Made by a program: the position numbers and the translations under genes
In this document: one piece after another, positions 28,449 to 59,920 of the stretch
Layout: each line of letters opens with the position of its first letter
Numbering within the stretch: the first letter of the stretch is position 1
NCBI GenBank assembly: GCA_033032865.1
Contig: JAWHQI010000028.1
Coordinates: 7,335,001-7,399,000 of the forward strand
DNA from: Dactylorhiza incarnata
Taxonomy: Eukaryota; Streptophyta; Magnoliopsida; Asparagales; Orchidaceae
Reading direction: 5' to 3'
DNA: 64,000 nucleotides
Notes under the pieces: model-generated
Database searches by the model: none
The model's input: the letters and a program-made list of their open reading frames with translations, nothing else
Told to the model about the DNA's origin: nothing

Positions 28449-30162
28449 CACCCCCAGACTTACATGTTTGCGCGTCCCGAGCAAACAATTCCTACGCAAG
28501 CGGGAATATGAGATAGCTAACTAAAAATTACAAAATGGAATACCATGCGAAGTCGCATGCTCATGCACGTATAAGAAAACTAGAGAAGATTTCTAATTAT
28601 ACACAGAGTTTATGAATTTCTATAAACATAAATAATTGTTACTTCTACTCAAAATGAGAATTACGGTGGATCATCTGGTCACGCATATGGAGAAAGTAAA
28701 CTGAACGCTGAGGCGAGTATTGCTAAAGATCGGGGTGCCGGAAAAACTCCACCGAAATCCATCGGTGTAGGTGACCATAGGCTTGCCCGGTCACATTCTC
28801 TCCACTACACTAGATTGGCCCAAGGCGTGAGTCAGTAGGACTTGTAGGTTTAGAACGGGGCTTGGGTTACGGTGAGGTAAACAAAGGTAAACCTGGAGGC
28901 TAAGCACACCCAACCCAAAATGAGCTTTAAGTCAAACTACCCGCACGACTATAATAAACAAGTGCATCACACCCCCAGACTTAGACTTTTGCAACATAGG
29001 TGTGTGCACTGCCCACTCTCCAATACAAATTTCAAACAAATTTTTCAATTACTTTTCATTCTTCTTTTTCTTTTCAAATCATTTTTCTTCTTTTCTTTTC
29101 TTTTTCTTTCTTTTCTTTTTCAGCAAAATTTTCAATGAAAACACCCACAGTTTCCACTATAAAAAAAATACCACGTCAACACCCCCCAAAATGTAAAAAG
29201 AACTATAACTAAAGCTCAGATTTGGGTGTGCGACTAGGTTAGGCTTTTAGGCTTTGGTGAAATAAAAGTGAGGCTGAATCAAGAGGAAGGGGTAGGCACA
29301 AAGGGGCTAGCACGGGTAAATGATAGGCATGAAATAAAAAGCTCAACCGGGCCAAAATGATGGCCTACGTCATTCTCACGCACTAGAACTATCCTATGTC
29401 AATGCTTCGAGAATCGCTTGGGGCAAGTTCTAGCCACCGAGAAAGATTTTCCTTTCTCCCGACTCGAGTAATACGAATCTAGCAAACGTCTACACACATC
29501 CCTACGCTACCGTTTGATTCACACCGGATTCATCATTTGAGTATAGTAAACAATATTTATACTAATAAAAATGCATAAAGCTATTAGTATAAGAAGAAAC
29601 CTAATCTACATGAATCCCTATACTCGCATGAGTACTTGACTAGAAACACCGGAGCCAACATTTTATTCCACTACATAATTTAAAAGCTAGCACAAACATT
29701 TTCTCATATGCAAAAAAGGAATGAGTTATACTCGTGACGCGCTGAAGGTAAAGTACACGCTCAAGTGGGTGCTAAGTGTGCAAACAAAAATGAACAAAAA
29801 TGATTCTTAGATAAAGAAGCTTCTAGCATGCTAAATAATTGTGCACGTGAGTGGGTACACAAAAATATCTCCCCCAGACTTAGACTATGCATTAAGATAT
29901 TCTAAAACAAAGTTAGGGGAAAAGGGTACCCAATGCTCAGCAAGTAAGCATTCTGGAAGCCTGTAGTGAAGTTCTACGAAGAATCACGACCACCGCCTTC
30001 ACAAATAGAAAATACCTGCAAAGGGTGGTCTCCGCACAAGAAAACTAAAATAGCACAAAATAAGCTAGTTTTTGCAGGGGATACATTAAAAGACATGAAA
30101 AATTAAGATAACTACTGGGGTTATTGTCCTCCCAGCACGACTTATTTGGCTTTTGTACAGTT
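28449..30162 (-). other. E4 3' non-coding region with three polypurine-like motifs
   Basis: On the minus strand TAAGTCTGGGGGTG is at 28462-28449, next to the LTR. Further copies are at 28983-28970 and 29882-29869, the last reading TAAGTCTGGGGGAG. The spacing matches E1 (see findings). A segment near 29415-29470 and the CTGGGAGG motif near 30130 also match E1. No credible ORF. Confidence 0.8.
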
Positions 30163-31454
30163 CTAGCTAATGGGCCTATGAAAAGAAAAGTGAACAGGCA
30201 GCTGTTCTAATATGCGTGTCGGTAGCGGGTACCGATACGGCGATAAAACAGTTATTCCCCTACCTAAATAACGATACATGTTGAACACAGGTAGCGGGAA
30301 TAGGAAGTAAGAAGAGGAGGAGGCCTGGTCCTTACTCATCTCACCACAAAATAAATCCTTGCCTAGCAAGGTGTCATGTCCAGGGAGGTGGCAGGAGAAA
30401 GAGGCAATGAGTGGAGCTTCCTCTACGGAGGGGGAATCAACCTCCTCACAAAAGAGGATGCTCTCATCATTGACTTGAGCATCATGCTCCAAGTCCTCCT
30501 GATGTACCTGTGGAGACTCAACCTGCACAGGCTCAGATATAGCAGAAGGGGGGTCAAGAAATAAAAGAGAAGAAGAACATAAATAAAAATCAGGCGGAGG
30601 AGTGGTCCCGGACTCACTCCCATCAGGTTGGGAAAGTAAAATAATGTTGGCATTGTCATCAATGCCACAAGATTCGGCGGGATCGTCAGTGGCCAAGCTA
30701 AAGATTTGGACTTCCTCCACCGGTGCTGAGAAAAGCTCCTCTTCACCTAGAAGGTTGTCCTCCTCCATAGGAGCAGGCACACTTAGATCGCCGGCCTCAT
30801 CCTGCGACACATCCTCGACAATGTCATCTAAAATAAATGTACTAGAATGCACAATAGGAGGGGGAAGGGTGCTTGGATAATAGTCCAGCGCACTGGTTCC
30901 TCACAAAGAATCAAACCTATGCTAGGAGATGGGTGTACAGGGGAGATGGGCTCAGCCATGTCAGTGCCCAGATCAGCCACACATTTGGTGACCGTGTCCA
31001 CATCATACCCTTCATAAGATGAAGGTGATATGGCCACATAACCAGATGTCGAAGGTGTGCCGCCAGAGGTAGGAGTCAGGACGATCCCGATATCCGGCTC
31101 GTCATCCTCGTCCAATTGGCGAAGATACTCGGCACAATCCTTCAGGGCATGATCCATGCTCTGACAAAACAAGCACTGCCTAATGGGCTTCTTTGGCACA
31201 GCGTGTGCTGATGCCAAAAAGAAGATTGACGGTAAAGGCGTGGCAGAATAGCCATAAGACTTCCGCGCACCATATGGAGTACCAGACGAAGTCGGTGCTC
31301 CATATGCTGGGTTGGTAGTGCTAGGGCTACTATCTCCCTTTGGACATCTATCGCTAGCATGAGAGATATCTCTACAAAAATGGCAACGAATATTAAACGC
31401 AGACCACATTTTGTGAAGATAAAATGATTCAACATGTAGAAAACTATTGTGCAA
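30163..31454 (-). pseudogene. E4 zinc-knuckle and acidic protein, frameshifted
   Basis: The first part (31454-30828, 208 aa) has two CX2CX4HX4C knuckles, CHFCRDISHASDRC and CLFCQSMDHALKDC, separated by a Ser/Thr/Pro/Tyr-rich linker. The second part (30852-30163, 229 aa) is very acidic. A +2-type shift near 30890 separates them; the natural continuation is in the frame of the second part. No capsid domain is recognisable, so this is either a knuckle-only gag remnant or a separate RNA-binding protein. It begins about 150 nt after the PBS, where gag belongs. A role in RNA packaging is inferred. Confidence 0.7.
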
Positions 31455-31599
31455 AATAATACACCCAACAAAAAATTACTTAACAGCCTAATATAAACAG
31501 TAAAACAGAATAAGAAGTAATAAAACAAAATTGCGATAAACAAATGGAAAGGGCTTTAATCTCAGATTCTCCCTCTCCAGAAAACTCGCACGTCCGTGT

Positions 31600-31617
31600 T
31601 CCCCGGAAACGGCGCCA
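31600..31617 (-). promoter_or_regulatory. E4 primer-binding site, tRNA-Asp
   Basis: Minus-strand TGGCGCCGTTTCCGGGGA, 6 nt inside the 5' LTR, fits the 3' end of plant tRNA-Asp with one mismatch. E6 has the perfect form. Confidence 0.85.
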
Positions 31618-31623
31618 AAAACT

Positions 31624-33049
31624 TGATGGCGCAAATCTCGCACACCGCTATAGGCGGTAGCTCGACTGCGACACGAAACGGCAGTGTACTTATCGTTCAA
31701 GTAATATAAAACGAGGAGTAATCCCCGAGTATCGAATCTCTCAAGGAACACAGTAAGGTGGAGTTAACGTTCGAGGAAGGACTTGAGATTGAAGTCCTTT
31801 ACGTCGGATGGATGTGGAAACGGGGGATTTGGATTGTGAAAAATAAAAAGAAAATACTACACTACTCCTATGCAATGCCGCTATGCAATGCTTCGCTTGG
31901 CGGGATGGAGACTAGGCAGGCCTTGAGCGCACTGCGTCGCAAGGGCGGATGGACGAGTAGGCAAATGGAGTGAGGGTCTTAAGCACCTCTTCGACAAGCA
32001 CGCCACTAGCAATTGCTAGTGCGGCAACGAACGCAATGGCGGGGTGGATGATGGAATGTGGCGCACCTCAAGCAACATAAACCATAAAATAATTTCACAT
32101 AGACATGAAATATAGAAATACAAACAAGTTTATGCACTCTACTTCATCATAATAATGAGATCTACACATCTACACATCAATAAGAGAAGTACAAGGCAAG
32201 AAATCGATCGAATCCGAAGTCTTGTTGAAGATTCACGGTTGGAATCGCTTGGTTGTCAATCCGCGTCCAAGCTTGGTCAGCAACTGCGTCCGGGGTAGAG
32301 AGAGCTGTCACTACTCTCCAATGGACCCGTCTTCTTTGTCTCACGATCCGGTGGAGGTTGCAAGCTTCCTCTTGCTTGAAGGTGATGGCGTCTAGATCTC
32401 TCTTGAAGCCCTAGGATGAAGGAGGAGGCCTAAGGGACGAAACCCTGGTGGAAATGGCGGAATCGCACTGCTGTACGGCGCGTATGGGCGTCTCCCGATT
32501 TAGGTCGAAGCTGCAGCTTTTATAGGAAAACGTCAGAAATTTGGTCACGCACGGTCGAACGCACGACCGTGCGTGGACCGTGCGATACTTAAGCGCAGCA
32601 GGCGTGCAGGAGAAGAAGGAATGCGCCCGTGTGTTTTACTCACGCACGGGCGAACCCGCCCGTGCGTTAAAACGCACGAGTAAACTCCGAGGCTCCGTTT
32701 TCTGCCCAGACACAAACGCACGACCGCAACCGACTGTGCGTCAAGGAAACGCACGACCGTGCGATATGCACAGAAATGACTTCTGGGGAAAACGGGACGA
32801 TCAGGTCACCTGCATACAAGATCAACGGCTGGGAATACACGTCCAGCAGCACGGAGATACAGAAAATACAATGGGGAGCACGAAGTGCTTACCCCCAACA
32901 ACAAAGTGCGCAATTGCACACAAAAACAGGCACAACTATATACTTCTAATAAAAGCATGAATAAAGGAAATATGAACGAAACTGAAGCACAAAAGCAGAA
33001 AAACTAGCCTAAATGAGTCCGAAAATATGTATATAATAGGGACTCATCA
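31624..33049 (-). repeat. E4 5' LTR (1426 bp)
   Basis: Same length and ends as 27023-28448. Its array is at 32543-32766 and its TATA box at 32516-32525. Confidence 0.95.
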
Positions 33050-33434: not shown

Positions 33435-34910
33435 CTGGATGTACTTGATCATCATCTAAATCATCTATTTCATCAGCTGCATTTGCTGGCCCCTCCCCCT
33501 CAGAGAGAGCATATTTGTCAGATGAGTCTAGGAAGGCTGTGACAATTAGTTAGAGTTAGAGTTAATGACTTTAGAAATGTTAAAGATGGATTTGGTAAGG
33601 GCTTTCCAAGGACATCATCTTTATGTATTGGTGGCTCTTGAGGCATCTCCCCTTCAGAAGGGGCATCAGGATGTCCTGGTGAAGGTAAATCCTAGAGGGC
33701 TGGTTCATTATCAGGATTAAGCTTAATTCTTTCTTCTAGATTGAAAATAAATCTATCAATCTGACCTTGCAAGTCCTGAGGAGAAGGCTCCTTGTCCTTA
33801 TCATCGTCATTGATATTAGTTATATCTAAGGAGGCTTGTTCTTGTTGTTTCTCCCCCTCAGATGGAGCACTCATCATTCCTTGAGGAGCTGTTGTCCACA
33901 CTATTCAAGTGTCAGAAATGACTACCTAATTGATTAGTTATGATCAAGTAATTAAGAGAGAAGTGTGGAGTTGAAGTATTAGTTACCAGGAGTTATAACT
34001 TGGACCAGCACCTGAGGATGGATAGTGTTAGTTGACATGTCATTCTGTATAGCATCTTTGTCAAGGTTGCTGTGTGACCCTATGTCAGCACCAGCATCTT
34101 CATTTTTATCTAAGTGGTCAGACTCAGAGCTTGACATAATTAGTCTAGGTTTCTTAGTGGATTTGGATGCCATTTTCTCCTTTTCTTTTGCCACAGTGGG
34201 CTGACTCATTGGAAGCACCCTGGTAAACCTGTCCAGGGTCTTGATATCCATTCTTTTGAGATAGTGAAGGTTTGATCCTTTGGAGTTGCTAAACTTTTCA
34301 GGGTAGGTTTGGAGTAGGTATAGGGAAAGAATTTTGCCCATGTTGGGTGCCAGAAGGCATTCCTTGATTCTTTTAAATAGGACTACTCCCAAGAGGTTTT
34401 CCTTTTGAGAATTATCCTTATCATGAGATCAAACATGAACTGTGAAATTGTGTCATGGGACCTTGGTTTGCAAAGGATAGCCTTTCCCACAATATCTGAT
34501 AGAATTTTTCCCTTTTGGTTGAAGAATTTCCTCTTTAATGATCATGTTTTGGCATCATTGTATCCAGTCCATTTCAGGGCCTTTGTCTTGTTTTTCTCAG
34601 AGATGTCTTCCTCCTCACTTGGACTGTAGTAAGGAAGATGTAAGGCTTTTTGTAGCTTTGTAGGGGTTATCTTTATTCTATCTTCTCCTATCTTTAACTT
34701 GAGGGAATACTTGGAAGAGGATAACTTGGCATTGCTAAACCATTCCAAAACTTCAGTTCTGAGAATGGTACTTGGTTCAGATAGAAGAAATTCCAGGCCT
34801 TGGTCTTCAAGGAGTTGAATCACTCCCTTGATTTCTTCAGGAGCATGAGCAAACTCATTCCTGACTATTTCATATCCTTCAAGAAGATCCTTAGAGCTTT
34901 TGGGATCCAT
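33435..34910 (-). pseudogene. E7 accessory ORF3, broken
   Basis: The start MDPKSSKDLLEGYEIVRNEF closely resembles E5 ORF3. The first piece (34910-34542, 122 aa) covers the N-terminal domain with EFLLSEPS, VLEWFSNAK and ITPTKLQKALHLP. After one stop the core SDIVGKAILCKPRSHD follows. A frameshift leads to 34392-33979 with KECLLAPNMGKILSLYL and LKRMDIKTLDRFTRVLPMSQ. The tail is acidic (33901-33692). It ends abruptly near 33435 where E3 gag begins, so the coiled-coil tail and 3' LTR of E7 are missing. Its pol is at 52926-56015, beyond E5. Confidence 0.78.
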
Positions 34911-35003
34911 TTCTGTGGTAGAAGAATGCGCCGGGACGGATGAGTAGGTGATTCATCTCGGTGGCTAAGAAAGAAGGGTCGTGTACCTTTCACTAATTAA
35001 GAT
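34911..35003 (-). other. E7 ORF3 leader, left side of the E5 insertion
   Basis: Untranslated sequence just before the ORF3 ATG, ending in the AAGAT target duplication (34999-35003). It joins, without E5, to 52444 and the TATA box at 52448-52458. Confidence 0.75.
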
Positions 35004-36283
35004 TGAAAGAACTTAGGGGTTTAGATTAAATCACCTAGAGGGGGGTGAATAGGTTTTTCTTATTCTTTTTGGGCTTAGAGCTGTTAGTAGCCTAATATGC
35101 CTACACAACCAATGAACTCAAGCTCAAATAATCACAGCCACAACACAAAGGATTTTATAGTGGTTCCCTAAGTGATGGGTAGTCCACTGTCCCCCTACAC
35201 CCCTCTAACTCCAATGTTAGATAGGGATCAAGATACTCCTCCAAGTTATCTTCTCAGCTTCTAAAGCTTACACCACAAGTTCCTCAGAACTTCTCAGATC
35301 ACAGATGATCCTACCTCATGACAATAGTCCCTACAGGTCAGAGCTATCACTAGCTCCTACCTCAGGCACAGCAGCCCTACAACTCAGAGGAATCCACCTC
35401 CTACAACTCAAACCACCTCCTGGTCCTACTTCAGGCAATAGCCTTTTACAATCTTCTCAGAGCTGAATATCTCTTACAAAATAAAGATATAATAGAATAA
35501 TAACTTCTACTATTGATTCAATCAGATGAGGTATCAGTAGAGAATCTCAGCAGAAGCTGATCTTGAGATGTTCCTGGCCTGGTTGATTCAGAACAGCTCC
35601 ATTATCTTCTTCTTCAGAAGGAAGAAAGAAGACCCCTGCCTCTCTTGTTGATGAAAACTAGAATCACTAAAAGAGAGAACAACTTCTGTTCAAGGCAAGA
35701 AAGTTGTTGCAGCTTTCAGGGGTTGCAGACGGGTTTCCTTGATGGCTTGAGCAAATACAATAATCAAGAGTGTCTTCTTTGTTGCCCTAGTTTTTGCTTT
35801 TATAGTATTGTACGTCTTCAACGGCTATAAGCACGACCTCCCTTGCCCATGCTGATAAAGGCATTACTTTATCACTTCTTGCGCCTTTATCAAATTTTAG
35901 GCGGCGCCAGTCAACGGAAAATAAGCTTGATTCTGTCTCAGCGGATCCGCTGAGACGGCTCCTTGTCTCAGCAGGTTAAAAGCTGAGATAGTCTTCTTCT
36001 CAGCGGTTGGCACAAGCTGAGACAGCTACTTCTTTTCAGTGGTTCCGCTAAGATGGCTCCCATCTCAGCGGATCTGACCCTTCGTCTCAGCGGTTCAGCT
36101 GAGACAAATCTTCATCTCTTAGGAGTTGATTTCTCCTGATCGTAGGTCCTGATTGACCCTTTATCATTGAGTCACCTATGCCTTTGTATCTTACAAAGCA
36201 AAGCTTTATCAAATACATTTAGTACTTAGCATTGCATAGTGACCTCTCTTCAAATCAAGGGAATTTGAGGGCAATTCCCAACA
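35004..36283 (-). repeat. E5 3' LTR (1280 bp)
   Basis: In element sense it starts TGTTGGGAATTGCCCTC and ends GTTCTTTCA. The purine tract TAGGGGGAGAT lies right next to it at 36284-36294. It holds the CTCAGCGG array and a TATA box (CTATAAAAGC) at 35796-35805. Confidence 0.95.
35936..36103 (-). repeat. E5 LTR palindrome array, CTCAGCGG family (3' copy)
   Basis: Units of TCTCAGCGGATCCGCTGAGA type, six or so, including degenerate ones. Full units are self-complementary. The 5' LTR copy lies at 52087-52262. The TATA box is about 130 nt downstream, farther than in E1, E4, E6 and E8. Confidence 0.85.
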
Positions 36284-36718
36284 ATCTCCCCCTATTTGAA
36301 GAGGGTAAAACACCTGCCAATGCTCAGTACCTTTTTAAACAGAAATATGTCAGTTTACTGAATTTGATTCATTAAGTAAAGTTATGACATTTCATGACAC
36401 ATGTAGCTTGAGTAAATATGTGTTGATATTATCAGTTTCTTATTTACACCAAGCATCATTAGATACATATATCAACAACTCATGAATATACATCACATAT
36501 ATGTTCATTATATTATGACTCAGCATTTCTTTATTACTATATGTACTGCACAGGATATTTATAACCTACTAAGATAGAGCATAGATATTCACATGCAACA
36601 TACATACATAAGCAACAATAGACACAAAATAATTTTCAGGGAATAAAAGGTCACTTCATTCAATTGTCCAAAATAGATATACAATATCAGTCCAAATCAT
36701 ATTGTTACATCAACCATC
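36284..36718 (-). other. E5 3' non-coding region and polypurine tract
   Basis: About 435 bp from the end of ORF3 to the LTR, AT-rich and without an ORF. The last bases in element sense are TAGGGGGAGAT (36294-36284), the plus-strand primer site. Confidence 0.8.
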
Positions 36719-38658
36719 CTAAGGAGCTCCTAAGTAAGGCATTTTCTTGGATGGTCCTTGGGTTGATGAGGAGATTTCTCCTATTTCCATGGACTTCCTC
36801 TTCCTTGCTTCAGCAGCAGCCCTCATATTTTCCATCCTTTTGAAATACATGAATGGCTTTGGAAGATATCTTGGAGGTACCCTTATAGGGATTTCCCTTC
36901 TTACCAGATTTTCTTTGTGGATTCTTTCCCTTGGAGACTCCCTCTCAAGATGCTTGATCCATTCAGCAGATGAGTAGGCATGGTCAATATCCTTGAGTGG
37001 ATTGCCATGGCTAACCCCAGTGTTGACTACTATGGTATCCAGTTCCAGATTGTCTTCCTCGGCAAATGGATCATCCACCCTTTCCATCCTCTTCTGGGCC
37101 ATGTACTCTTCAGCAGTCTGAATGCCCTCTCTTCTTCCCCTCTTTGCTTCCTCCTCATCTTGAATCTATTGAGATTGATTTTGAAAATCAAAATCTTCAG
37201 TTCTGTTTGGGTTCAGCATAGGAAGATTTAAGGCAATTCAGGTTCCTTGTAGTACCTTCAGACTTGTGGCCCTTTGATCATTATTTACCATCTCAACAGC
37301 TTTTAGAAGTTTATTTCGAATTTCATTTGAGACATTGTTGACTTCTTCCACCACTTTCTTTTAGGCTGCTTCTTGGTTAGTGTTTAGCTATTTATGGGCA
37401 TTCTCCAGGTTGGTGTCCAACCTCATGTGGGCCTCCTTCAGGTTTATACTTAGCTTGGCAATTTCTTCCTCCCCCTTTTTGCTCTCTTCAAATATCTTCT
37501 TTCCAATTTCAGAGTGTTGGTCAAGTATAGATTGGGAGAGAGTTTGGAAAGTACTTTCCACATCATCCAGTACATTTTCCTTGGCCTTTTCAATGTGGGA
37601 CATGACATGGATGCTGGTTGTTTTGGTCACTTGGACCATTTTGGCCACGGCCTTCTCCCAGACATTTTCAGTCTTATAGACTTGATTTTTTACATAGGCA
37701 ATGTCCCTGGTGGAGTCCCCTTGTCTATCTGCAATTTGCTTCAGTATGGTGTGTTGGGCAGCAACAGTGCTTTTAGCCATCTCAAACCATCTGGTCATCT
37801 GCTGGAGAATATGAGCAGATGATGTTTTGACACTTTGGACCTGAGTATTCAGCTCAGTCCTTACTGCAGCCACCCTGGATTCCATTCTCTGATCACTGGC
37901 TTGGATCTACTGAGTCAATGTTGCCCTTGTAGCATTGAGCTCATCTTTGATTTGGGCAGTGGCACCATGAACTTTTTCTTCAAAGTGCTCCTTGATAGAC
38001 AATATCTGACCCTCAATTATGGATGTTATTGCGTTTAGCAGGTCAGATGTGTCCAGCACAGCTGCTGGCCATTCCTGGGCTATTTCCTTCTGCACTGCAG
38101 GTTCAGGTCTTGGCAGCTCATCAGAGGGGCGTAGAGGGTTTGGCTGTAATTCAACTTCCATGTTGTGAATTATCTTGTTTAATTCTTCCTCCCCCTCACT
38201 AGTACCCCCTTCTTTCTCTTCACAGTTTGAGCTTTGCTCCCCCTCACTTCTTGTAGAAGCATCTACTGCTCCAGACCTGGAGTCATGCTCCCCCTCACCT
38301 AGAACATCCATGTGTGGAGGACTTTGTCATGGGGAACCTGAAGAGAGAAAGATGTGTTAGTTAAATTCCTAGTCTTATCTATAGTCTGAGGAGTGTAGGT
38401 TAACTGTGATCCTTGGTTTACCAGGGATATGTGAATTCCTTGGTTCATCCTTAGTTGGTGGGACGGCTGGTTCAACATGGATTTGAGTTGACTCAGAGTG
38501 AGATTCAACTCTCACTTGGGGTACATTCTCTACATTTGTCCTGGGGACATCTTCACCTTCCACTCCTTCCATGTGCTCCTATTGATCATCATCCTTGCTG
38601 GATTTCTCGGCCCCTTCTGCCTCAGTCTTCTTAGCCTTTTTCTTCTCCTTCAGCTCAG
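36719..38658 (-). pseudogene. E5 accessory ORF3, C-terminal part
   Basis: Continuation of 44586-43867 past the nested E6. It begins Lys/Glu-rich and then becomes acidic and Ser-rich. A long helical, coiled-coil-like region follows (38311-37388), with segments such as SIIEGQILSIKEHFEEK and VESRVAAVRTELNTQVQ-like heptads. The end is basic (37102-36719), finishing KKMPYLGAP. Stops lie near 38580, 37905, 37387 and 37170. No signal peptide or membrane span is visible, which argues against a classical envelope protein. The combined length without stops is near 880 codons. I infer a structural or RNP-associated role, with little support. Confidence 0.7.
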
Positions 38659-40357
38659 TGATAATAAAAATTGGACTTCTTCTTCTAGGGTTTATGATTT
38701 ATAAAAATGCGAAGAAGTTTGATGATATTTTCCAAAACTATATTCGATGAAGGCAAGTGTACCTTATCGTATATAACATAGGATATTTTATAAAAATACC
38801 AAGGTCGTATTAAACTCGGGTTTGTCGAGTACTTCTACTTCGAGAAAGCGGACTATTATTTTATCGGAGAGAGAGCGGAAAAGAGAACTAAATTGCTACT
38901 AAATAAAAGAGAACGAAAATAAAGAAAGAAAATAAAACTTGATTAAAACTCGCTTTGAAATGAAATTAAAAGATAAATACTATCATTCAACTCTAAGCCT
39001 TGACCGTGGGGATTCCCGAAGCTCGAACATGCCTCTCTCGAGGTTAATGCCCAACTAAGCTTAGGAAAAATCAACCGGACTCTCGTCCTATAATTGATTA
39101 CCTAAGACTTGCTTTACGCTGTGAATCCCACTATAGGATTTGACTCCTATCCGGAAGATTTACGTCATCCTCTCTCGAGGGGTGCGTGCAACTCTTTTTA
39201 TTCTCGAGTGATCGATTCATACGCACGTCCTCTCGGCTAGCTAGAATACGAAAACAAATACCGAAATTCATAACCGGAATATGAACTCGATATCGTTATA
39301 TTTCGAGAATAAATCGAAGGAGAGAAGATAAAATAATAAGGAAAGAGATGATTTTGATTCAAAGCTTGCTAAAAATCAAGACTACAAAATAATTGCTAAA
39401 GGAAAAAATTAAAACAAGAAAGAGAGAGAAAGAGGAAGAAAGAGAGTTTGCGAAAATAAAAGAAAGCTTAAATTTTCATTGCCATAAAAGAAAGAGATTA
39501 CATGAAATAAAACCTACATTACATTGCTTGGAATTGAAACTAAGCTAGCTTGCATGAAATAAAATTACAAGGAATGAAAAAAAGAAATAACAAAATTACA
39601 TGAAATTAAAGCTAACCCTAAAACATGAAGAAATAAGGAAAACTGTACAAGAATAGCCCAAATGGGCAGGGGGAAGGGAATGGAATGCTGGAGGAGAACC
39701 TCTGAATTTATAGGAAAAATTTCCAGGTTACACGCCCTCGGTCACGGGCGTGACCTAGGGCGTGTAATACTTGTTCTGCACGGCTGCGACATCGGCGTGG
39801 GTCTTGCATGACTGTGTCGCGAAAAAGGACATTACACGCCCGTGTAACTTTGGTCACGGGCGTGTACCTGGGTGGCTTCATCAATGCGGCATGGGCTTGA
39901 GTGCGGCGCTGCAGCGAAAAGCGATCACGCGCGAAAAGTCACGGGCGTGACTCATGGGTCACGGGCGTGACTTGGGTCAACTCCTCGACAGCATCTCCAC
40001 GTCTCGTCGGTAGCCAGCTGGGAAGATTCTAAGATTACACGCCCTTGGTCACGGGCGTGACCTGGTGTCACGGGCGTGACCTGGGGCGTGACTTGCTGTG
40101 GACTAGTTCAATCTGCTCGGCAACACTTTTGGACTGATCTTAGTGTTACACGCCCTTGCTCACGGGCGTGACCTAGGGCGTGTACTATGGAATTTGTCCA
40201 AAAACACCAGAAAATCTGCAAAACAAAAATACAATTATATTTAGAACTAAAATTATAAAAGAAGTGATTTTTAACTAAAATATAAATAATATTTAAAAAA
40301 TTATATTAAACTTAACCTAAATACTATAATTAAAATAAGCATAAATCCTACTTATCA
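38659..40357 (-). repeat. E6 3' LTR (1699 bp)
   Basis: On the plus strand it starts TGATAATAAAAATTGGAC and ends TCCTACTTATCA. The TATA box CCTATAAATTC is at 39704-39714. Array at 39732-40190. Confidence 0.95.
39732..40190 (-). repeat. E6 LTR palindrome array, CACGGGCGTGA family (3' copy)
   Basis: Repeated ACACGCCC, GGTCACGGGCGTGACC and GGGCGTGTAA units, about ten sites in GC-rich blocks. The unit GTCACGGGCGTGAC is nearly palindromic. The array ends about 18 nt before the TATA box. The second copy is at 43241-43699. Confidence 0.85.
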
Positions 40358-42143
40358 AATACCCTCATACTTAAGCTTTTGCTATTCCAGGGCAAAAGTA
40401 TGAGAAATATTTATAAGACATTTAATAAAAATTTTAATTAAGACTAAAAATTTATTGAATCACAAGTAAGCTAAAAAGAAAATTTAAGGATCGACGAATT
40501 AAGTCCTAAATTATGAAATTAAAATAATAAGAGAAAAATATTTAGCCAAGAGTTCTCAAAAATATTAACTAGTTAACAAAATTAAGTAATAAGTAAACAA
40601 AATTAGATTTAAAATTTATAAAAACCATAACTTTGAAAAATCTAAAGGAAAAATGTAACTTACTAAGTATTGCTCTCTCCATAACATAATTTAAATCTAG
40701 ATCAAAGATATTGGGTTAGGGGGGGTTTCATAAATTTTGGCATAAGAAGAGATCTTTGAATGAAGGTGATGGATTTTCCATTTCACCAAAGTGGTTTTTT
40801 TTTTAAGTAAATATTTTTTTTTCTCTTCTAACAACAACCCAAAATGTATATAGTTTAGGAGTAATGAATTTTATCCTCTTACTCCATGCCATATAATCTT
40901 TTCAAATATTTTGGGTGCATATGTTTTAGGGACTAATGAATTTTATCCTCTTATTCCCATGACATATGATCTTTTAAAATACTTTTTTTATGCCATCAAA
41001 GGGGTAGGGTAGAGAAAAGACTTCTAGCTTATAAATTAAATTATTTTGAGAGCAAATTTTAGTACTTTAAACTTTCCTAAGATTTTAAAAGCTTGAGGTA
41101 GAAATAATTAAAATCTAAAGGTGTTTAAGCAAGATTACTAAAAATTTGTAACTATTTAAAATAAAAGAGAAGAAGTGCTAAAGAAATACCTCTAATCAAA
41201 TTAAAATCATAAAATATTTCTTAGCACTAAATCACTTAAACAAAAATTAGATTTAGCAAACCATGATAGAATAAATGATTAGCAAATAAAAAAGTATAAA
41301 TGCTTATACATAAACTCCAAATGATTTTGGAAATGACAAAAACCAAAGTAAGGGCTTATTATATTTTTGGGATTTTTTTATAAGTTTTTTGTAATAATTT
41401 TTTGGAATTTTTTTTTTTGATATTATCTTTTTTTTTGGAATTTTTAATATTATCTTTTTTTTTGGAATTTTTTAGGATAAGAAATAAATACTAAAAATGC
41501 TAAACATAAACTAAAAAAAAACTAATTTTTTTTTGTTAATTCTTGGACTTCCCGAGGTCTACCCGGTGAAGGGCTCGCAAGGTACTAGAGGCTGTGAAGG
41601 GAATTCAATCCCAAGGCGTCCTTTCCGAGAATTTAAATTTTTGATTATCTAATTTTTTTTTAATTTTTTTGGGTTTTCTAAATTTTTTTTTTTATGAAAA
41701 AGCTAATTTTTCTTTTGTAAAAGACAATAAAAAGGAAACAAACTATTTACAAAACTATGTACACAAATATTTTTGGAATTTTGTGATTTTCAAAAATTTT
41801 TTTTTTTTTTTGGAAATTTTCTACGATTTTATAATTTAAAAGAAAGAGAAATACACCCACATACTTAAAGTTCAACATTGTCCACAATGTTGAAAGCTAA
41901 GTATGGAGAATAATAAAATAGAAAATACAAGAGCATGATTATGAAAGAAAAAGAACAAGGAGAGGAAAAGAAGTACGTCCCTGATGGAGACGGACGACCA
42001 TCACGATTACCTGCAAAAATTTTCTTTCAAAACCATAAGACAAAACACAAAATTAAAACATAAAAGTTACTTATTATTATTATTATATATTTTTTTTTGA
42101 TAAAAGTAATAGTGCTTTCTCTTTTCAAAATATCGACTAAATA
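40358..42143 (-). other. E6 internal non-coding region
   Basis: AT-rich with long T runs and no ORF of useful size. A distinct GC-richer block lies at 41541-41634 and is shared with E8. The purine tract AGTATGAGGGTATT is next to the 3' LTR (40358-40371). Confidence 0.85.
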
Positions 42144-42161
42144 TCCCCGGCAACGGCGCCA
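42144..42161 (-). promoter_or_regulatory. E6 primer-binding site, tRNA-Asp
   Basis: Minus-strand TGGCGCCGTTGCCGGGGA, perfect complement to plant tRNA-Asp 3' end as I recall it, 6 nt from the LTR. Confidence 0.88.
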
Positions 42162-42167
42162 AAAACT

Positions 42168-43866
42168 TGATAATAAAAATTGGACTTCTTCTTCTAGGGT
42201 TTATGATTTATAAAAATGCGAAGAAGTTTGATGATATTTTCCAAAACTATATTCGATGAAGGCAAGTGTACCTTATCGTATATAACATAGGATATTTTAT
42301 AAAAATACCAAGGTCGTATTAAACTCGGGTTTGTCGAGTACTTCTACTTCGAGAAAGCGGACTATTATTTTATCGGAGAGAGAGCGGAAAAGAGAACTAA
42401 ATTGCTACTAAATAAAAGAGAACGAAAATAAAGAAAGAAAATAAAACTTGATTAAAACTCGCTTTGAAATGAAATTAAAAGATAAATACTATCATTCAAC
42501 TCTAAGCCTTGACCGTGGGGATTCCCGAAGCTCGAACATGCCTCTCTCGAGGTTAATGCCCAACTAAGCTTAGGAAAAATCAACCGGACTCTCGTCCTAT
42601 AATTGATTACCTAAGACTTGCTTTACGCTGTGAATCCCACTATAGGATTTGACTCCTATCCGGAAGATTTACGTCATCCTCTCTCGAGGGGTGCGTGCAA
42701 CTCTTTTTATTCTCGAGTGATCGATTCGTACGCACGTCCTCTCGGCTAGCTAGAATACGAAAACAAATACCGAAATTCATAACCGGAATATGAACTCGAT
42801 ATCGTTATATTTCGAGAATAAATCGAAGGAGAGAAGATAAAATAATAAGGAAAGAGATGATTTTGATTCAAAGCTTGCTAAAAATCAAGACTACAAAATA
42901 ATTGCTAAAGGAAAAAATTAAAACAAGAAAGAGAGAGAAAGAGGAAGAAAGAGAGTTTGCGAAAATAAAAGAAAGCTTAAATTTTCATTGCCATAAAAGA
43001 AAGAGATTACATGAAATAAAACCTACATTACATTGCTTGGAATTGAAACTAAGCTAGCTTGCATGAAATAAAATTACAAGGAATGAAAAAAAGAAATAAC
43101 AAAATTACATGAAATTAAAGCTAACCCTAAAACATGAAGAAATAAGGAAAACTGTACAAGAATAGCCCAAATGGGCAGGGGGGGGGGAATGGAATGCTGG
43201 AGGAGAACCTCTGAATTTATAGGAAAAATTTCCAGGTTACACGCCCTCGGTCACGGGCGTGACCTAGGGCGTGTAATACTTGTTCTGCACGGCTGCGACA
43301 TCGGCGTGGGTCTTGCATGACTGTGTCGCGAAAAAGGACATTACACGCCCGTGTAACTTTGGTCACGGGCGTGTACCTGGGTGGCTTCATCAATGCGGCA
43401 TGGGCTTGAGTGCGGCGCTGCAGCGAAAAGCGATCACGCGCGAAAAGTCACGGGCGTGACTCATGGGTCACGGGCGTGACTTGGGTCAACTCCTCGACAG
43501 CATCTCCACGTCTCGTCGGTAGCCAGCTGGGAAGATTCTAAGATTACACGCCCTTGGTCACGGGCGTGACCTGGTGTCACGGGCGTGACCTGGGGCGTGA
43601 CTTGCTGTGGACTAGTTCAATCTGCTCGGCAACACTTTTGGACTGATCTTAGTGTTACACGCCCTTGCTCACGGGCGTGACCTAGGGCGTGTACTATGGA
43701 ATTTGTCCAAAAACACCAGAAAATCTGCAAAACAAAAATACAATTATATTTAGAACTAAAATTATAAAAGAAGTGATTTTTAACTAAAATATAAATAATA
43801 TTTAAAAAATTATATTAAACTTAACCTAAATACTATAATTAAAATAAGCATAAATCCTACTTATCA
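42168..43866 (-). repeat. E6 5' LTR (1699 bp)
   Basis: Same length as the 3' LTR. The differences I saw are one A/G in a GATTC(A/G)TACGC context and two in a G run near 43180. TATA box at 43213-43223, array at 43241-43699. Confidence 0.95.
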
Positions 43867-44586
43867 TTCAGCCACCATAGAGGGTTGGCTCATGGGGAGG
43901 ACTCTTGTTGATCTATCCAATGTCCTTATATCCAATCTTTTCAAGTAGTGGATGTTGACACCTTTGAGGGAGGAGAAATGGCTTGGATATGCCTTCGGTA
44001 GGTAGAGAGACAGGATCCTTCCTAAGTTAGGGGCCTGCAGACATTCTTTCAGTCTTTGATAAAGAACATTCCCCCACCTTGTTCTTTTCTTCAAGATGAT
44101 TCTTGTAACCAGCGCAAACATAGGTTGAGAAATGGTGTCATGAGAGCCTGGTTTACACAGAAGAGCTTTCCCCACTATATCACAGAGCAACTTGCCCTTT
44201 TGATTGAAGAACTTCTTTTTCAGAGATGAGGTCTTGGGGTCACTGTATTCACAACAGCTCAGGGCTTGTTCCTTGTCAGTCTCTGACACCTCTTCTTCTT
44301 CCAGTCTAGGTATTTGCAGTACCTTTTCTAGCCTCCTAGGGGTCACCTTCACCCTTATCTATCCAATTTTGGAAGAAAGGCCATCCTTAGAGGATGACTG
44401 CTTGACATTGGCATAAAAGTCTAGCACTTCATTCTTGAATATCTGAGAGGGTTCAGATAGAAAAAACTCCAAACCAGCTTTAGTGACAAGGGTGATGACA
44501 CTGAGAACCTCTGGTGAGGCATAGAGAAAGCCATCCCTCACAAACTCATATCCCTCAAGCAATGCTTTGGAGCTTTTGGGAGCCAT
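43867..44586 (-). pseudogene. E5 accessory ORF3, N-terminal part
   Basis: It starts MAPKSSKALLEGYEFVRDGF. Its segments are AGLEFFLSEPSQIFKNEVLD and FYANVKQSSSKDG, then one stop (44357). Next are VTPRRLEKVLQIP, the core CDIVGKALLCKPGSHD, KECLQAPNLGRILSLYLP and LKRLDIRTLDRSTRVLP. The reading frame then runs into E6 at 43866. FYANV plus the KVL..P element and the LLCKPGS core recall the Pfam 'putative plant transposon protein' family (PF20167 from memory; not checked). The ATG is about 97 nt after a TATA-like box and a palindrome array. Product function unknown. Confidence 0.78.
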
Positions 44587-44680
44587 TGCAGTGGTGGAGG
44601 AATGCGTTGGGATGGAAGAGTAGGTGAATCGTCTCGGCGCCTAGGTTAAAGGAAAGTGCGATATTTTACTCAGTCATTAA

Positions 44681-44690
44681 GCTATTTATG
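44681..44690 (-). promoter_or_regulatory. possible internal TATA box before E5 ORF3
   Basis: CATAAATAGC on the minus strand, between the internal array and the ORF3 ATG at 44586. E7 has TATATAAATAG at the same relative place. Confidence 0.5.
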
Positions 44691-44777
44691 TGGTTTAAGA
44701 TTTAGGTAAAATGAAACATAGTAATTAGATTTGATTGCCCTTATAATTGATAGTGTAAAAGAAATTACACCATCAGG

Positions 44778-45105
44778 CTGAGTTCCTCGAACTCAAACTG
44801 GAGTTCGTCGAACTCAGACTGGAGTTCGTCGAACTCAAAGCTGAGTTCGTCGAACTCAAAGCTGAGTTCATCTGAACTACATCATAAGGCAGAGTTCGTC
44901 AAACTCAAAGCTGAGTTCATCGAACTCAAAGTAGAGTTCGTCGAACTCAAAGCTGAGTTCGTCGAACTCAAAGCTGAGTTCATCTGAACTACATCATAAG
45001 GCAGAGTTCGTCGAACTCAAAACTGAGTTCGTCGAACTCAAAGTAGAGTTCGTCAAACTCAAGCTCAACGTTCGTCGAACCCAGGTAAAAGTTCGTCAAA
45101 CTGAG
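44778..45105 (-). repeat. E5 internal palindrome array, GAGTTCGTCGAACTC family
   Basis: About a dozen copies of GAGTTCGTCGAACTC, each nearly self-complementary, joined by AAAGCT or AAAGTA linkers. Some repeat as a longer period ending CATCTGAACTACATCATAAG. The motif differs from that of the E5 LTR. Location: between RNase H and ORF3. Confidence 0.9.
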
Positions 45106-51155: not shown

Positions 51156-51157
51156 CT

Positions 51158-52438
51158 TGAAAGAACTTAGGGGTTTAGATTAAATCACCTAGAGGGGGGT
51201 GAATAGGTTTTTCTTATTCTTTTTGGGCTTAGAGCTGTTAGTAGCCTAATATGCCTACACAACCAATGAACTCAAGCTCAAATAATCACAGCCACAACAC
51301 AAAGGATTTTATAGTGGTTCCCCAAGTGATGGGTAGTCCACTGTCCCCCTACAACCCTCTAACGCCAATGTTAGATAGGGATCAAGATACTCCTCCAAGT
51401 TATCTTCTCAGCTTCTAGAGCTTTCACCACAAGATCCTCAGAACTTCTCAGATCACAGATGATCCTACCTCGGGACAATAGTCCCTATAGCTCAGAGCTA
51501 TCACCAGCTCCTACCTCAGGCACAGCAGCCCTACAACTCAGAGGAATCCACCTCCTACAACTCAGACCACCTCCTGGTCCTACTTCAGGCAATAGCCTTT
51601 TACAATCTTCTCAGAGCTGAATAGCTCTTACAAAATAAAGATATAAGAAAATAATAACTTCTACTACTGATTCAATCAGATGAGGTATCAGTAGAGAATC
51701 TCAGCAGAAGCTGATCTTGAGCTGTTCCTAGCCTGGTTGATTCAGAACAGCTCCACTGTCTTCTTCTTCAGAAGGAAGAAAGAAGACCCCTGCCTCTCTT
51801 GTTGATGAAAACAAGAATCACTGAAAGAGCGAACAACTTCTGTTCAAGGCAAGAAGGTTGTTGCAGCTTTCAGGGGTTGCAGATGGGTTTCCTTAATGGC
51901 TTGAGCAAATACAATAATCGAGAGTGTCTTCTTTATTGCCCTAGCTTTTGCTTTTATAGTACTGTACATCTTCAACGGCTATAAGCACGGCCTCCCTTGC
52001 CCATGCTGATAAAGGCATTACTTTATCACTTCTTGCACCTTTATCGAATTCTGGGCGGCGCCAGTCAACGGAAAATAAGCTTGATTCTGTCTCAGCGGAT
52101 CCGCTGAGACGGCTCCTTGTCTCAGCGGGTTAACAACTAAGACAGTCTTCTTCTCAGCGGTTGGCATAAGCTGAGACAGCTACTTCTTTTCAGCGTTTCC
52201 GCTGAGATGGCTCCTCGTCTCAGCGGATCTGACCCTTCGTCTCAGCGATTCAGCTGAGACAAATCTTCATCTCTTAGGAGTTGATTTCTCCTGATTTTAG
52301 GTCCTGATTGACCCTTTCTCTTTGAGTCACCTAAACCTGTGTATCTTACAAAACATAGCTTTATCAAATACATTTAGTACTTAGCATTGCATAGTGACCC
52401 CTCTTCAAATCAAGGGAATTTGAGGGCAATTCCCAACA
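51158..52438 (-). repeat. E5 5' LTR (1281 bp)
   Basis: Pairs with 35004-36283, with perhaps two or three per cent scattered differences by eye. TATA box at 51950-51959 and array at 52087-52262. Followed by the AAGAT duplication. Confidence 0.95.
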
Positions 52439-52447
52439 AAGATTGAC

Positions 52448-52458
52448 TATTTATATAA
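52448..52458 (-). promoter_or_regulatory. internal TATA box of E7, cut off from ORF3 by E5
   Basis: TATATAAATAG on the minus strand is a strong plant TATA match. Before E5 inserted it lay about 107 nt from the ORF3 ATG. E5 inserted only some 5-10 nt downstream of the box. Confidence 0.65.
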
Positions 52459-52572: not shown

Positions 52573-52735
52573 CACAGCGGAACCGCTGAGACGACTACCT
52601 TTACCGCTAGGACAGGGGGCAGGCAACCGCTGGGACAGATTTAGTAGTCTCAGCGGTTCAGCTGAGATGTTTCCCAGCTGTCTCAGCGGTTCAGCTGAGA
52701 TGTTTCCCAGCTGTCTCAGCGGTTCAGCTGAAACA
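52573..52735 (-). repeat. E7 internal palindrome array, CTCAGCGG family
   Basis: Units such as TCTCAGCGGTTCAGCTGAGA, some within a perfect 34-bp-like tandem including TGTTTCCCAGCTG. It lies between RNase H and ORF3 of E7. The motif is the one found in the LTR of E5, not in the internal array of E5. Confidence 0.88.
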
Positions 52736-56015: not shown

Positions 56016-56460
56016 GTACCATATTTGGTTGAGGCTGGTACTTGAACTACCCTACAAGAAGAACTTTAGTTACCCTTAGGAGCCCAAATAATTTTGGGTC
56101 CTAGGACCTTGTTAGCATGAAGAATTTATCTTCCTCCTACAGCACTCCTTCCAGGAAGGTTCTTATTTGCAAGAGGCACATTGGGATTATGCCAACAGTC
56201 TATGGCAAAGTGTCCCACTTTACCACAGCACCAACACTCATGAATGTTGTATCTCCTTTTCTGAACATTTCTTGTAGGAAGAGCATCAATGTGCTTGTGT
56301 TCAGGAGAGGAGGCAGCAGCATTTTTCATGTTCCTTTCAGTAATGATCTGGCTGAATGTTAACCCTTATTCACCCCCCCCCCCCCCTAAGGGCACCAAAA
56401 ACAAATGGTCCAGGTTGGGCCATTTGAATTTCCTCATGGGGAGCCTTCATAGCACTCAAG
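56016..56460 (-). pseudogene. E7 gag end with second zinc knuckle
   Basis: The piece 56329-56126 has CWCCGKVGHFAIDC followed by WHNPNVPLANKNLPG. To its right is a foreign filler of about 30 bp (56364-56393) with a C run, then a stretch (56394-56460) matching E5 gag near 49070-49130. E8 cuts the element at 56461; the rest of gag would lie beyond the window. Confidence 0.75.
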
Positions 56461-57565
56461 TGTTGGATCTGTAGGCGCCCTTAGAGGGGGGTGAATAAGG
56501 GTTTTAAAAACATATGTTATATTTTGAATGACTTGAAAGAATAAGAGATTAAAATAATGATTTTAAATAAAGATCTAAATTGTTTTATAATGAAAGAGAG
56601 GATAATAAACACTTTAGAGAAATGAAGAATAAAATCAATTTTATTACTATAACGCTAGAAATCGGAGGCGAATAATAATAAAACTCTTTTTTGTTTTTTA
56701 TCCCGACTAGTATCCCCATGAACCGGTGGCCCTAGCCTATCCTTCCCCGGATACGGCCTTAAGCTGCTCTAGACAATCCTTCCCCGGATATGGCCTGGAG
56801 CACCCCCTAGACCTAACCTAGATCTAGTCGCCAACATGAGGCGAATTTCTGCCCCGAGTCCTACCCAGACCTAGTCGCCAACACGAGGCAAATCCACTAA
56901 ACGATTACAAGGATAAAGATGTGAAATAAACAACAATAATATAAAAAAACTCCCTTTAAATAACTTCTGAATTCGGAGATGAAGGATCGCTGTAGAATAA
57001 GCATGGTTGAAGCGATCATCCTTCGGATATAGCGTGACAAAGTCCTCCTTCAGAATCTCTCTAAGCTTTTTGGTGGGAGATCAACTCTCGGCCGAACAAG
57101 GCTCTGGAATTGTGGCACTAAACCTCTCTTCAACTTCTCTCAGGAAAATGAGAGAAGAGGGATCCTTTTATAGGAGAGAGCGCTAGCACCTGCACTAACA
57201 CTACCACCAGCGCTACCCCGGTATAGCATTATTCTGCGTGTGCGTATCTTTCTTTCCAGGGAAACATTGTCGGCTTGCCTCTTGTGCTCCTCGCTACCGC
57301 CTGCGCTATCAGCTACCGCCTAGCGCTAGCGCCTTCTAAAGATGTTCCCGGAATTACTCTAATCAAAGCTAGCGACTGCGCTAGGTGCTACCGCCGGCGC
57401 TAGTGGGAATCTTGGAATTTTTGACTTCTAAGTTGGGGGCAACCTTCATGTGTTGTCCTTGAGTCATATGGACTTGTTTGCATGTACACTTAACCACACA
57501 AGAACAAATACACATAGGATTTGTTATTCTCAAACCTAGGAGATGCGGAAGACCATTTTCCTACA
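56461..57565 (-). repeat. E8 3' LTR (1105 bp)
   Basis: In element sense starts TGTAGGAAAATGGTCTTCC and ends AGATCCAACA. The purine tract AAAAGGGGGAATT abuts it (57578-57566). TATA box CCTATAAAAGG at 57164-57174. It also holds two copies of ATCCTTCCCCGGATA with nearby diverged sequence (about 56738 and 56775). Confidence 0.93.
57177..57404 (-). repeat. E8 LTR palindrome array, GCGCTAGCG family
   Basis: Units of AGCGCTAGC, GCTACCGCC and GCGCTAGCGCC type, self-complementary at the core, about eight sites. The array lies within about 5 nt of the TATA box. The 5' LTR copy starts at about 63848 and runs out of the window. Confidence 0.82.
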
Positions 57566-59072
57566 AATTCCCCCTTTTGATAATAACAAATCCATTAATG
57601 ATAAATCAGAGCATTAATATATAAGCATGATAAAAATCTACTTGTGTGTGAGTGTGAGAGATGACTTAGGATAAATGTCAATATTAGTAGTTAGAATTGC
57701 TCCCCCTAAATATGTGTTCCCCCTATGCGAATGCTCCCATTAAAAGAATTCTATCAACTTAATCTTTGAGTTTAATCATGTTGATATTTCCATTTGATAA
57801 CACATTATTTATCATTTAATTTTCCCCCCTTTTGTTATTAGCAAAAGTGGGCAAGGAATCCACAGACACAAAAGAGAGGATTTTTGTTTGAAAAAGATAA
57901 GGCATGATCGAGCGTTTAGAGAAAATGAAATGATAATGAGTTTTAAGGATAATAAGGTAATGATTTCCAAGTAACTAATCTACCCAGACAATATGTCTAC
58001 ACCCAAGACCCATACTAAGTGACGGATGGTCATGAGGAGCTGCAAATAAGCCGTAGGTTGGGGTGTTAGTCTCATACGCAAACACTAGAAAATACTCAAC
58101 CTAGCACTCTCCCCCCAGTGCCTCGCAAGGCCCCACTGGAACCCTCCCCGGTTAAGAACAAGACATGACTTAACGGTTAGATTATCTAATGCCTACAACC
58201 CTACGCCCCCGCTATGGTGAGATATGTAATCATGGGATAATACTTATTGGAAACATTAAGCATTTTAAATCTAATGATAGGTACATAGCCTATGGATTTA
58301 TATTTTTATTTGAATTTTTAAACAAAAAAACTCACATAGCTATTTTGAAATCCATTAATGAATCAGAGTTTTTAGCATTGCGGAAGAATGAAAGAAACAT
58401 CTTTATGAAAAGCATAATAATAAATAAGATTTTAAGTTTTGAAATTGTCATAGGAGTAAATCAGAGTTCTTAGCATTAAAAAATGATATGCGTGTTAGAA
58501 CAACCAATATAAATTTTACCAAGCAAGTCTACCACTTGTTAAAAAATTTTGAGATTTAAGACTTGATATAAGCATGAAAGCGCAAGGTAAAAATATATGG
58601 TGATGATGTGGAAGACTTATAGAGATACAAGAAACAACTTTTTTGTAATCATGATTATCCATAAGAAGAAATATGAGTTAAATTCAAAAAGAGAAGATGT
58701 TTTTTTGTAAATCAAGTTCTTATAAAATCTTTTGACAATAAAGTAACCAAGCATGAAAGGAATATATCAATAAGAGACTACTACAATGTTATTGTAATTC
58801 ATAAATTCAAGACATACCAAACATTGTAGAGAGCATGCTAGGTTATCTAGTGCATTTCATAAATAAAGAGTAGTATAGAATTAGCATTAGGATCCAATAC
58901 TCATGAGATGAAGTGTTATAGAAGATAGTGATGTGCACATAAGTGTATTTTGAATAGAGTAAACAAATGATTTAATCAAAAATACAAGACATACGTAGAG
59001 TAAAGTGCATAATAAAACACAAATAGTTTTACTTGCCCACACTTTAATGCACATAGAAAATGTACAACTACC

Positions 59073-59310
59073 AAGGTGCTTTGCACACACAATGCTCATT
59101 AAGACTTATTAGGGTGCAAAGTAGTGCTTTGGGGATCACACACTGTTTATTTTGTCAATATTGTTTTTTTGTGATCTAGTGTACTTAAGAGTAAGTGGTT
59201 TTATTTTTGTAAGAAGGTTTGCACAAGACACTTTATTATTCTTTCCAAGGTGCTCAACCTCACAATGCTTAGTAAGACTTATCAAGAGGTTCAAGTAGTG
59301 CTTGGTGGAA
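59073..59310. repeat. pair of imperfect hairpin repeats in E8
   Basis: Copy 1 (59073-59141) has arms CTTTGCAC and GTGCAAAG. Copy 2 (59246-59310) has arms AACCTC and GAGGTT. Both share AAGGTGCT, ACAATGCT, TAAGACTTAT and AGTAGTGCTT. The arms differ between copies but stay paired. Confidence 0.75.
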
Positions 59311-59828: not shown

Positions 59829-59920
59829 TCTTGGACTTCCCGAGGGCTACCCTATGAGGGGTTCGCCCGGTACTATGAGATGTGATGGGATGATAGCCCA
59901 AATCTTCCTTTCGCAAGATA
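59829..59920. repeat. block shared with E6 (about 90 bp)
   Basis: Starts TCTTGGACTTCCCGAGG, identical to E6 at 41541-41557, with good similarity onward including GGTACTA and a TTTC end. Same orientation relative to both elements. Confidence 0.85.

Follow-up and report, generated by a model that had tools for sequence, protein, structure and literature searches.

Candidate Internal TATA Promoter and Splice Acceptor-Like Site as Two 5′ Arrangements of ORF3 in SIRE-Type Elements of Dactylorhiza incarnata

Elements of the Window and the Region Preceding ORF3

The window, that is, the whole stretch of 64,000 nt of D. incarnata DNA that was analyzed, contains the elements E2, E5, and E7, each with an accessory gene, ORF3 (table 1). 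The genes of E5 are placed on the minus strand in the order gag, pol, a linker of ~800 nt, and ORF3. In the pol of both E5 and E7, the integrase precedes the reverse transcriptase (rve then RVT_2), which is the order of Ty1/copia elements. A polyC-rich integrase signal at the LTR end adjoining a GGTATCAGAG-type PBS was recognized by eye in E5 and in the E2-type, and one PPT-like stretch was seen before the 3′ LTR of E5 (~36290). E5 is inserted into E7 with a 5-bp flank duplication (by eye), and it separates the TATA box of E7 from the ATG of its ORF3. The LTR of E7 was not found within the 64-kb window, and for this reason the comparison of internal and LTR signals does not include E7.

The ORF3 of E2 is homologous to that of E5 (27–31% identity, E about 5e-16). 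The gene upstream of ORF3 in E2 is gag, and no RNase H is present at this place; the copy in the window has no pol match and does not carry a full gag-pol.

Protein searches with ORF3 retrieved no homologues at E ≤ 0.01, and its pieces matched no Pfam family above the cut-off. A possible downstream piece of ORF3 (37391–37906) gave 20 weak Pfam matches, none above the cut-off. Among the viral contigs, no relatives of pol were found. The pattern of the integrase signal occurred in 56 places, 3 in viral and 53 in genome contigs, with one weak pol match (L034, 46 residues, E 3.6e-5).

Table 1. Features of E5, E7, and E2 in the Window
Feature	Position	Strand	Remarks
E5 LTRs	5′ LTR 51157–52438; 3′ LTR 35003–36284	−	95.5% identity (self-comparison); ends by eye
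Palindromes in E5 5′ LTR (CTCAGCGG..CCGCTGAG)	52089–52260	−	
TATA TATAAAAG in E5 5′ LTR	51951–51958	−	
E5 internal palindrome array, GAGTTCG(A)CGAACTC	44778–45105	−	13 GAGTTCGNCGAACTC units (≤3 mismatches), spacing mostly 21 bp
E5 TATA-like box CATAAATA	44683–44690	−	One mismatch from TATAWAWR; first base 104 nt before ATG
Predicted transcription start of E5 ORF3, CAC	44656–44658	−	Bases 33–35 from first TATA base; prediction only
E5 ORF3 leader	44587–44657	−	No upstream ATG; aligned with relatives
E5 ORF3, first part, broken	43867–44586	−	In-frame TAG 44361–44359; nested element from 43866 down
E7 internal palindrome array	52573–52735	−	CTCAGCGG..CCGCTGAG type, as in E5 LTR; 4 units, 1–2 mismatches
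E7 exact TATA box TATAAATA	52448–52455	−	Severed from its own ATG by E5 insertion
E7 ORF3 ATG	34908–34910	−	Leader 34911–34997, past E5 target-site duplication
E2 LTRs	6561–8211 and 12683–14335	+	Self-comparison
Weak candidate splice donor AAG|GTTAAC, E2 5′ leader	8244	+	≥5 bits in 21/30 copies
E2 internal palindrome array (TCGACGNNNCGTCGA)	10430–10690	+	5 units, ≤2 mismatches; common to E2 LTRs; CpG o/e 1.86
E2 splice acceptor-like AG (TTTCTGTAG|GTAC)	10827–10828	+	18 nt before ATG; top 0.17% of 8625 window AGs
E2 ORF3, first open stretch	10847–11425	+	192 codons

In the initial annotation, the ORF3 of E5, E7, and E2 was described as having a common upstream order, namely a palindrome array, a TATA-like box, a leader, and the ATG. 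Arrays do precede ORF3 in all three elements, and the ATGs of E5 and E7 were confirmed, the latter on the far side of the E5 insertion; the TATA box holds for E5 and E7 but not for E2. The array of E5 is far beyond chance, as the whole window has 15 matches to GAGTTCGNCGAACTC against a mean of 1.32 in shuffled sequences (maximum of 5 in 100 shuffles). For the arrays of E7 and E2, the units were counted (table 1), and the comparison with shuffled sequences covers E5.

TATA Box and Leader in E5/E7-Type Copies

The TATA-like box proposed for E5 is present, and that of E7 (TATATAAATAG) includes an exact TATA, with the correction that it begins at 52457 and not at 52458. An exact TATA is expected by chance in ~5% of stretches of E7's size. 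In random stretches of 150–200 nt, a TATAWAWR site occurs in 46–54% of cases with at most one mismatch and in 5–7% exactly. Thus, the TATA strings alone do not stand far above chance, and related copies were needed.

Relatives were drawn from the plant's own genome (3.27 Gb), in which 408 perfect matches to the start motif of the E5/E7-type ORF3 were found, 186 of them forward and 222 reverse. A set of 15 copies was composed of E5, 12 copies hand-picked among the first of these matches so as to be varied, and two (L141 and L145) from the list of palindrome loci; as relatives of one another, these copies are not independent. E7 was left out because its promoter and its ATG are located on the two flanks of the E5 insertion.

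All 15 copies have a TATAWAWR site with at most one mismatch at −95 to −110 from the ATG of ORF3, and in 11 of them the site is exact. In the last 180 nt before the ATG of the same copies, no exact TATAWAWR was found at the 2340 other positions. A core promoter motif is therefore located at a nearly fixed place before ORF3 in the E5/E7-type.

The 15 copies are split into two groups, of nine and six, with a mean identity of 0.48 between them and of 0.78 and 0.76 within them. The 12 best-kept windows of nine bases between the groups form two islands, one at the leader motif TCCCAGCGC (best 0.91) and one at the TATA (best 0.87). The former, located ~20–30 nt ahead of the ATG, is better kept between the diverged groups than any other 9-mer.

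The last 75 nt before ORF3 are free of ATG in 12 of the 15 copies, the exceptions being L158, L160, and L151; by comparison, E5 has 19 ATGs from the stop of pol to the TATA. A CA starting at bases 30–36 after the start of the TATA is found in 13 copies (not in L149 and L160). This is weak evidence, because the copies are related and 40% of random 7-position stretches have a CA. In E5, a CA is located at base 33 after the TATA start, alike at the internal site and in both LTRs.

A YAG with a pyrimidine tract, of modest acceptor score, is located at approximately −50 to −56 in eight of the nine copies of the E5/E7-like group (L158 has CGG). On the other hand, only one of the six copies of the second group (L157) has it, and hence the YAG is not a shared feature of the E5/E7-type. 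In the five copies of the second group without YAG, the TATA-like site remains.

Two other explanations were considered for E5. Stop-codon read-through or reinitiation was rejected because ~800 nt with 19 ATGs separate the stop of pol from the TATA. The origin of the internal site as a duplication of the LTR was also rejected, since a lenient self-comparison gave no match of at least 60 nt between linker and LTR.

Acceptor-Like Site in E2-Type Copies

In the protein search for E2 ORF3 in the host genome, 150 related places were scored out of 37147 first-look candidates. The E2-type sample included 50 of these, that is, the best 30 and 20 hand-picked among the less similar ones. Three copies (L069, L078, and L108) were dropped because their upstream sequence was replaced, leaving 47; for the longer alignment of 45 copies, L098 and L109 were also dropped.

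A gag coiled-coil piece precedes ORF3 in 37 of the 50 relatives, and sense-strand pol was found before ORF3 in none of them (within 1.5 kb in 30 and 2.5 kb in 20 relatives); an antisense pol match is present in one (L079). Judging from these sequences, the E2-type is a non-autonomous SIRE derivative with gag and ORF3 and no pol between them, in which ORF3 has been kept.

In E2, ATTATAACC at ~10695 had been taken for a TATA box. It is not one, and between the array and the ATG no site lies within one mismatch of TATAWAWR. The relatives agree: in the last 230 nt before ORF3, an exact TATA occurs in none of the 47 copies and a site with at most one mismatch in six. The site at ~10695 itself was located in 34 of the 47 relatives, with TATAA in five and ATACAAC or ATAAAAC in 20. 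In the LTRs of the E2-type, an exact TATAAATG was aligned in 10 of 30 copies, 55–87 nt after the array, and the only LTR TATA of the copy in the window is CATAAATG, in the 3′ LTR. Since the E2-type LTRs have TATA, its absence from the internal region is a contrast. The order of array then TATA, which had been assigned to the LTR promoters, was confirmed for E5, and in the E2-type an exact TATA follows the LTR array in these 10 copies.

Farther upstream, before the array, an exact TATAWAWR is located at −502 in 35 of the 45 copies (34 with TATAAAT(A/G) and one other), directly followed by AATAAA in the majority of the columns. Between approximately −150 and −110, the E2-type also has a block CCTAAG..TCTTCTTTTAAGCAAC, for which a hairpin is possible in some of the seven copies folded.

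A sequence resembling a 3′ splice site, TTTGCAG|GTAC, usually lies 13–22 nt before the ATG of the E2-type ORF3. The acceptor-like AG at −14 to −26 has the top score in 41 of the 47 copies, among 73–158 AGs per 1400 nt upstream, and a simple acceptor picker selected CAG in 36, TAG in six, and other triplets in five copies. TGNAG is present in 41 copies, at 13, 14, 18, 19, or 22 nt from AG to ATG (1, 15, 10, 14, and 1 copies, respectively), and missing in L072, L073, L080, L087, L090, and L092, the last having TTACAG. In the alignments, the columns TGcAGGTAC are mostly kept at 90% or more, and their flanks vary. The distances from AG to ATG do not belong to one reading frame, which indicates a leader and not a coding sequence. 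For the same reason, a Gag-ORF3 fusion by splicing was rejected.

No donor conserved in at least 10 of the 45 copies was found between the array and the AG. Candidate donors are AAG|GTTAAC in the 5′ leader (21 of 30 copies) and one at the 3′ end of gag (34 of 45), which are weak or perhaps kept by coding.

Palindromes, Their Spread, and CpG Content

The internal palindrome of E5 has no matches in either of the E5 LTRs, and the internal palindrome of E7 is that of the E5 LTR. In the case of E2, the LTRs and the internal array have the same TCGACG..CGTCGA palindromes. Because the palindromes can differ between the LTR and the internal array of one element, the earlier proposal of similar cis-elements is only partly true. 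The palindromes had also been called family specific, which needs correction: their position is kept and their sequence turns over, and GAGTTCGNCGAACTC recurs thousands of times genome-wide.

In detail, GAGTTCGNCGAACTC has 5722 exact occurrences in the host genome against 52 of the reversed control. Twelve of these loci were looked at. In two (L141 and L145), the array precedes an E5-type ORF3. In L146, it is joined directly to the 3′ sequence of ORF3 (matching E7 33471–34140) and the start of ORF3 is lost, as is probably also the case in L142 (weak match) and L147 (by eye). Arrays stand beside E2-like LTR sequence in L057 and L058, and the surroundings of L144 are LTR-like by eye. In the overlapping loci L059 and L060, the array precedes a short, unrelated ORF that has a weak Myb-like match (E 0.034, below the Pfam cut-off), and no context was assigned to L143 and L148. 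One palindrome, GAGTTCGNCGAACTC, thus seems to be shared by unrelated transposons. As arrays persist without the start of ORF3 and the palindrome is found at other sites, the arrays alone are no proof of an ORF3 promoter.

The CpG o/e ratio is 1.29 in the array of E5 and 0.62 in that of E7, with the array of E2 having the highest value (table 1). The corresponding values for E5 are 0.04 in pol and 0.00 in the part of the linker that precedes the array. Similarly, the mean of the 47 E2-type copies is 1.77 in the array zone and 0.20 at −1400 to −700. CpG has been kept in the arrays and lost in the rest of the element, which suggests that, with the exception of E7, the palindromes matter to the element.

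Expression of ORF3 and Alternative Explanations

The E5/E7-type is characterized by the arrays, by a conserved leader, and by a TATA whose place hardly varies among many copies. From these features, we infer a transcription start at the internal site and the binding of a factor to the palindromes; the factor may belong to the element or to the host, or the palindromes may instead act as RNA hairpins. In E5 and E7, both of which are SIRE-type elements of Ty1/copia, ORF3 would be under its own RNA polymerase II promoter. In the sense strand, the CpG-rich palindrome array would provide the upstream activating sites, followed by the TATA ~99–109 nt before the ATG, a transcription start at a CA ~30–36 nt past the TATA, a short leader in which upstream ATGs are mostly absent, and ORF3. 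The LTR promoter would produce the genomic RNA for Gag-Pol, and the internal promoter a separate short mRNA for ORF3. Its control is probably partly separate from that of the LTR, since the internal palindromes can differ from those of the LTR. In the E2-type, with gag and ORF3 and no pol, ORF3 would be made from a longer RNA through splicing into TTTGCAG|G. This combined reading, that is, an own TATA promoter with an upstream array in the E5/E7-type and, more likely, splicing in the E2-type, is given a probability of roughly 0.7 on the basis of sequence comparison. The internal promoter originally proposed for all three elements would accordingly be retained for the E5/E7-type, and in the E2-type the lack of an exact TATA and the kept acceptor speak against it. 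The mismatch in E5's own TATA counts against the promoter reading.

ORF3 could also be expressed in general by splicing of an RNA started in the LTR, as in the case of retroviral env, with an acceptor just before the ATG and an incidental TATA. As an explanation for ORF3 overall this is rather unlikely, with different weight in the two types. For the E2-type, it is the likely route: the best-scoring AG (41/47), its form as CAG or TAG (42/47), the presence of TGNAG at varying frame (41/47), and the retention of TGcAGGTAC amid varying flanks all favor an acceptor, against which stand the six copies without TGNAG at this place and the candidate donors, none of which is pinned down. For the E5/E7-type, splicing is quite unlikely; the YAG of the E5/E7-like copies points toward it, but five of the six copies of the second group lack YAG and maintain the TATA-like site. 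The splice-site and TATA matrices used were approximations.

For the E2-type ORF3, splicing into the conserved AG is the first choice and an internal promoter without TATA the second. The latter would be built from AACCCTAAG together with stretches rich in pyrimidines that follow the array, with TGCAG as a part of the 5′ UTR, and it is a possible but doubtful explanation. It agrees with the CpG-rich array and with several conserved blocks between the array and the ATG, and plant genes often have CT-rich leaders and AACCCTA motifs close to their starts. It gives no reason, however, for the retention of TGcAG|GTAC amid drifting flanks, and the LTRs of the E2-type do carry TATA. It is improbable that the arrays represent tandem repeats of a passive or silencing-related kind (small-RNA hairpins or satellite seeds), with no part in a promoter, and that the TATA was kept by shared ancestry. 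The abundance of the GAGTTCG palindrome in the genome, beside E2-like LTRs and elsewhere, and its persistence without the start of ORF3 in L146, and probably in L142 and L147, would be expected of such repeats. Nevertheless, the high CpG of the E5 and E2 arrays (though not of E7) compared with E5 pol, and of the array zone in the 47 E2-type copies compared with the sequence upstream, argues against passivity, and the TATA stands out from flanks of the same ancestry.

The Tas protein of foamy viruses acts as a transactivator. ORF3 might be a regulator whose targets are the palindrome arrays of the LTR and of its own internal promoter, in a foamy virus-like circuit of two promoters. The palindromes would then be a fast-changing operator code passed between unrelated transposons, with cross-family control or hijack as possible outcomes. 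This idea is highly speculative and improbable.

Comparison with Known Elements

How Sireviruses express their additional 3′ gene has been an open question since at least 2002, according to the account in PMC2829016. The hypothesis of an internal promoter for ENV is credited there to Peterson-Burch and Voytas (2002), and Bousios et al. (2010; PMC2829016) argued for it, with the promoter not conclusively identified. In the parts of that study covered here, palindromic RM boxes are located before a conserved TATA in Sirevirus LTRs and again before ENV in the ENV-bearing elements. The palindromes were found in the linker in nine of nine ENV-bearing RM elements and in none of four without ENV, and 77 of 79 copies lay upstream of ENV (PMC2829016). 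The idea of an internal promoter and the arrays before an ENV-like gene have thus been published since 2010.

In E5, as in these elements, palindromes are clustered in the LTR ahead of a TATA and again before the 3′ ORF. The E2-type shares the layout of arrays in the LTR and before ORF3, and an exact TATA was aligned in the LTR of 10 of 30 copies. Compared with the 2010 description, the E5/E7-type adds a conserved TATA and leader, and the E2-type has an acceptor-like site and no TATA there. As far as a text search of the open-licence literature indicates, the conserved TATA with its leader and the two 5′ architectures of homologous ORF3s appear to be new. A TATA at a nearly fixed distance amid diverged flanks offers the hypothesis a concrete start site, and the contrast with the E2-type suggests that homologous ORF3s can stand behind different expression signals. 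If this is true, an element could produce its accessory protein without producing genomic RNA, a point of relevance to how such families follow host silencing or escape it.

Internal promoters of accessory genes are found in other systems. In Grande, gene23 is located between pol and the 3′ LTR and has its own promoter (Gomez-Orte et al. 2013, as cited in PMC7264820); gene23 is antisense and Grande is Ty3/gypsy, whereas ORF3 is sense and Ty1/copia. Foamy viruses combine an LTR promoter with an internal promoter and a 3′ accessory gene, tas (PMC7828637). The likeness to ORF3 would consist of the two promoters and the 3′ accessory gene; no relationship is implied.

Other routes are described for env and env-like genes, that is, stop-codon suppression in SIRE1 and predicted or reported splicing in Bagy2 and Athila (PMC2829016 and PMC7264820). 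In all three, as here, a sense ORF is placed 3′ of gag or gag-pol, and splicing resembles the acceptor of the E2-type. Unlike the env of SIRE1, the ORF3 of E5 begins ~800 nt past the stop of pol, for which read-through is unfit, and the E5/E7-type has a TATA. In a survey of eORF-3′F, 74% of SIRE elements had a sense ORF downstream of pol, with great diversity among these ORFs, and the text of the survey as covered here gives no expression signals (PMC6317226).

The palindromes themselves differ in part from the RMs. Bousios et al. list one consensus per element, with a CGG-CCG core except in Tnd-1 (PMC2829016, in the parts covered here). The core is present in the LTR of E5 and partly in the linker of E7; it is absent from the E5 linker and from the E2 palindromes, and the LTR and linker palindromes of E5 are different. 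Other LTR elements of the window (27019–33049, 38659–43866, and 56409–64000) also have CpG-rich palindromes in their LTRs, of the types CGCACGACC.., GTCACGGGCGTGAC, and AGCGC..GCGCT.
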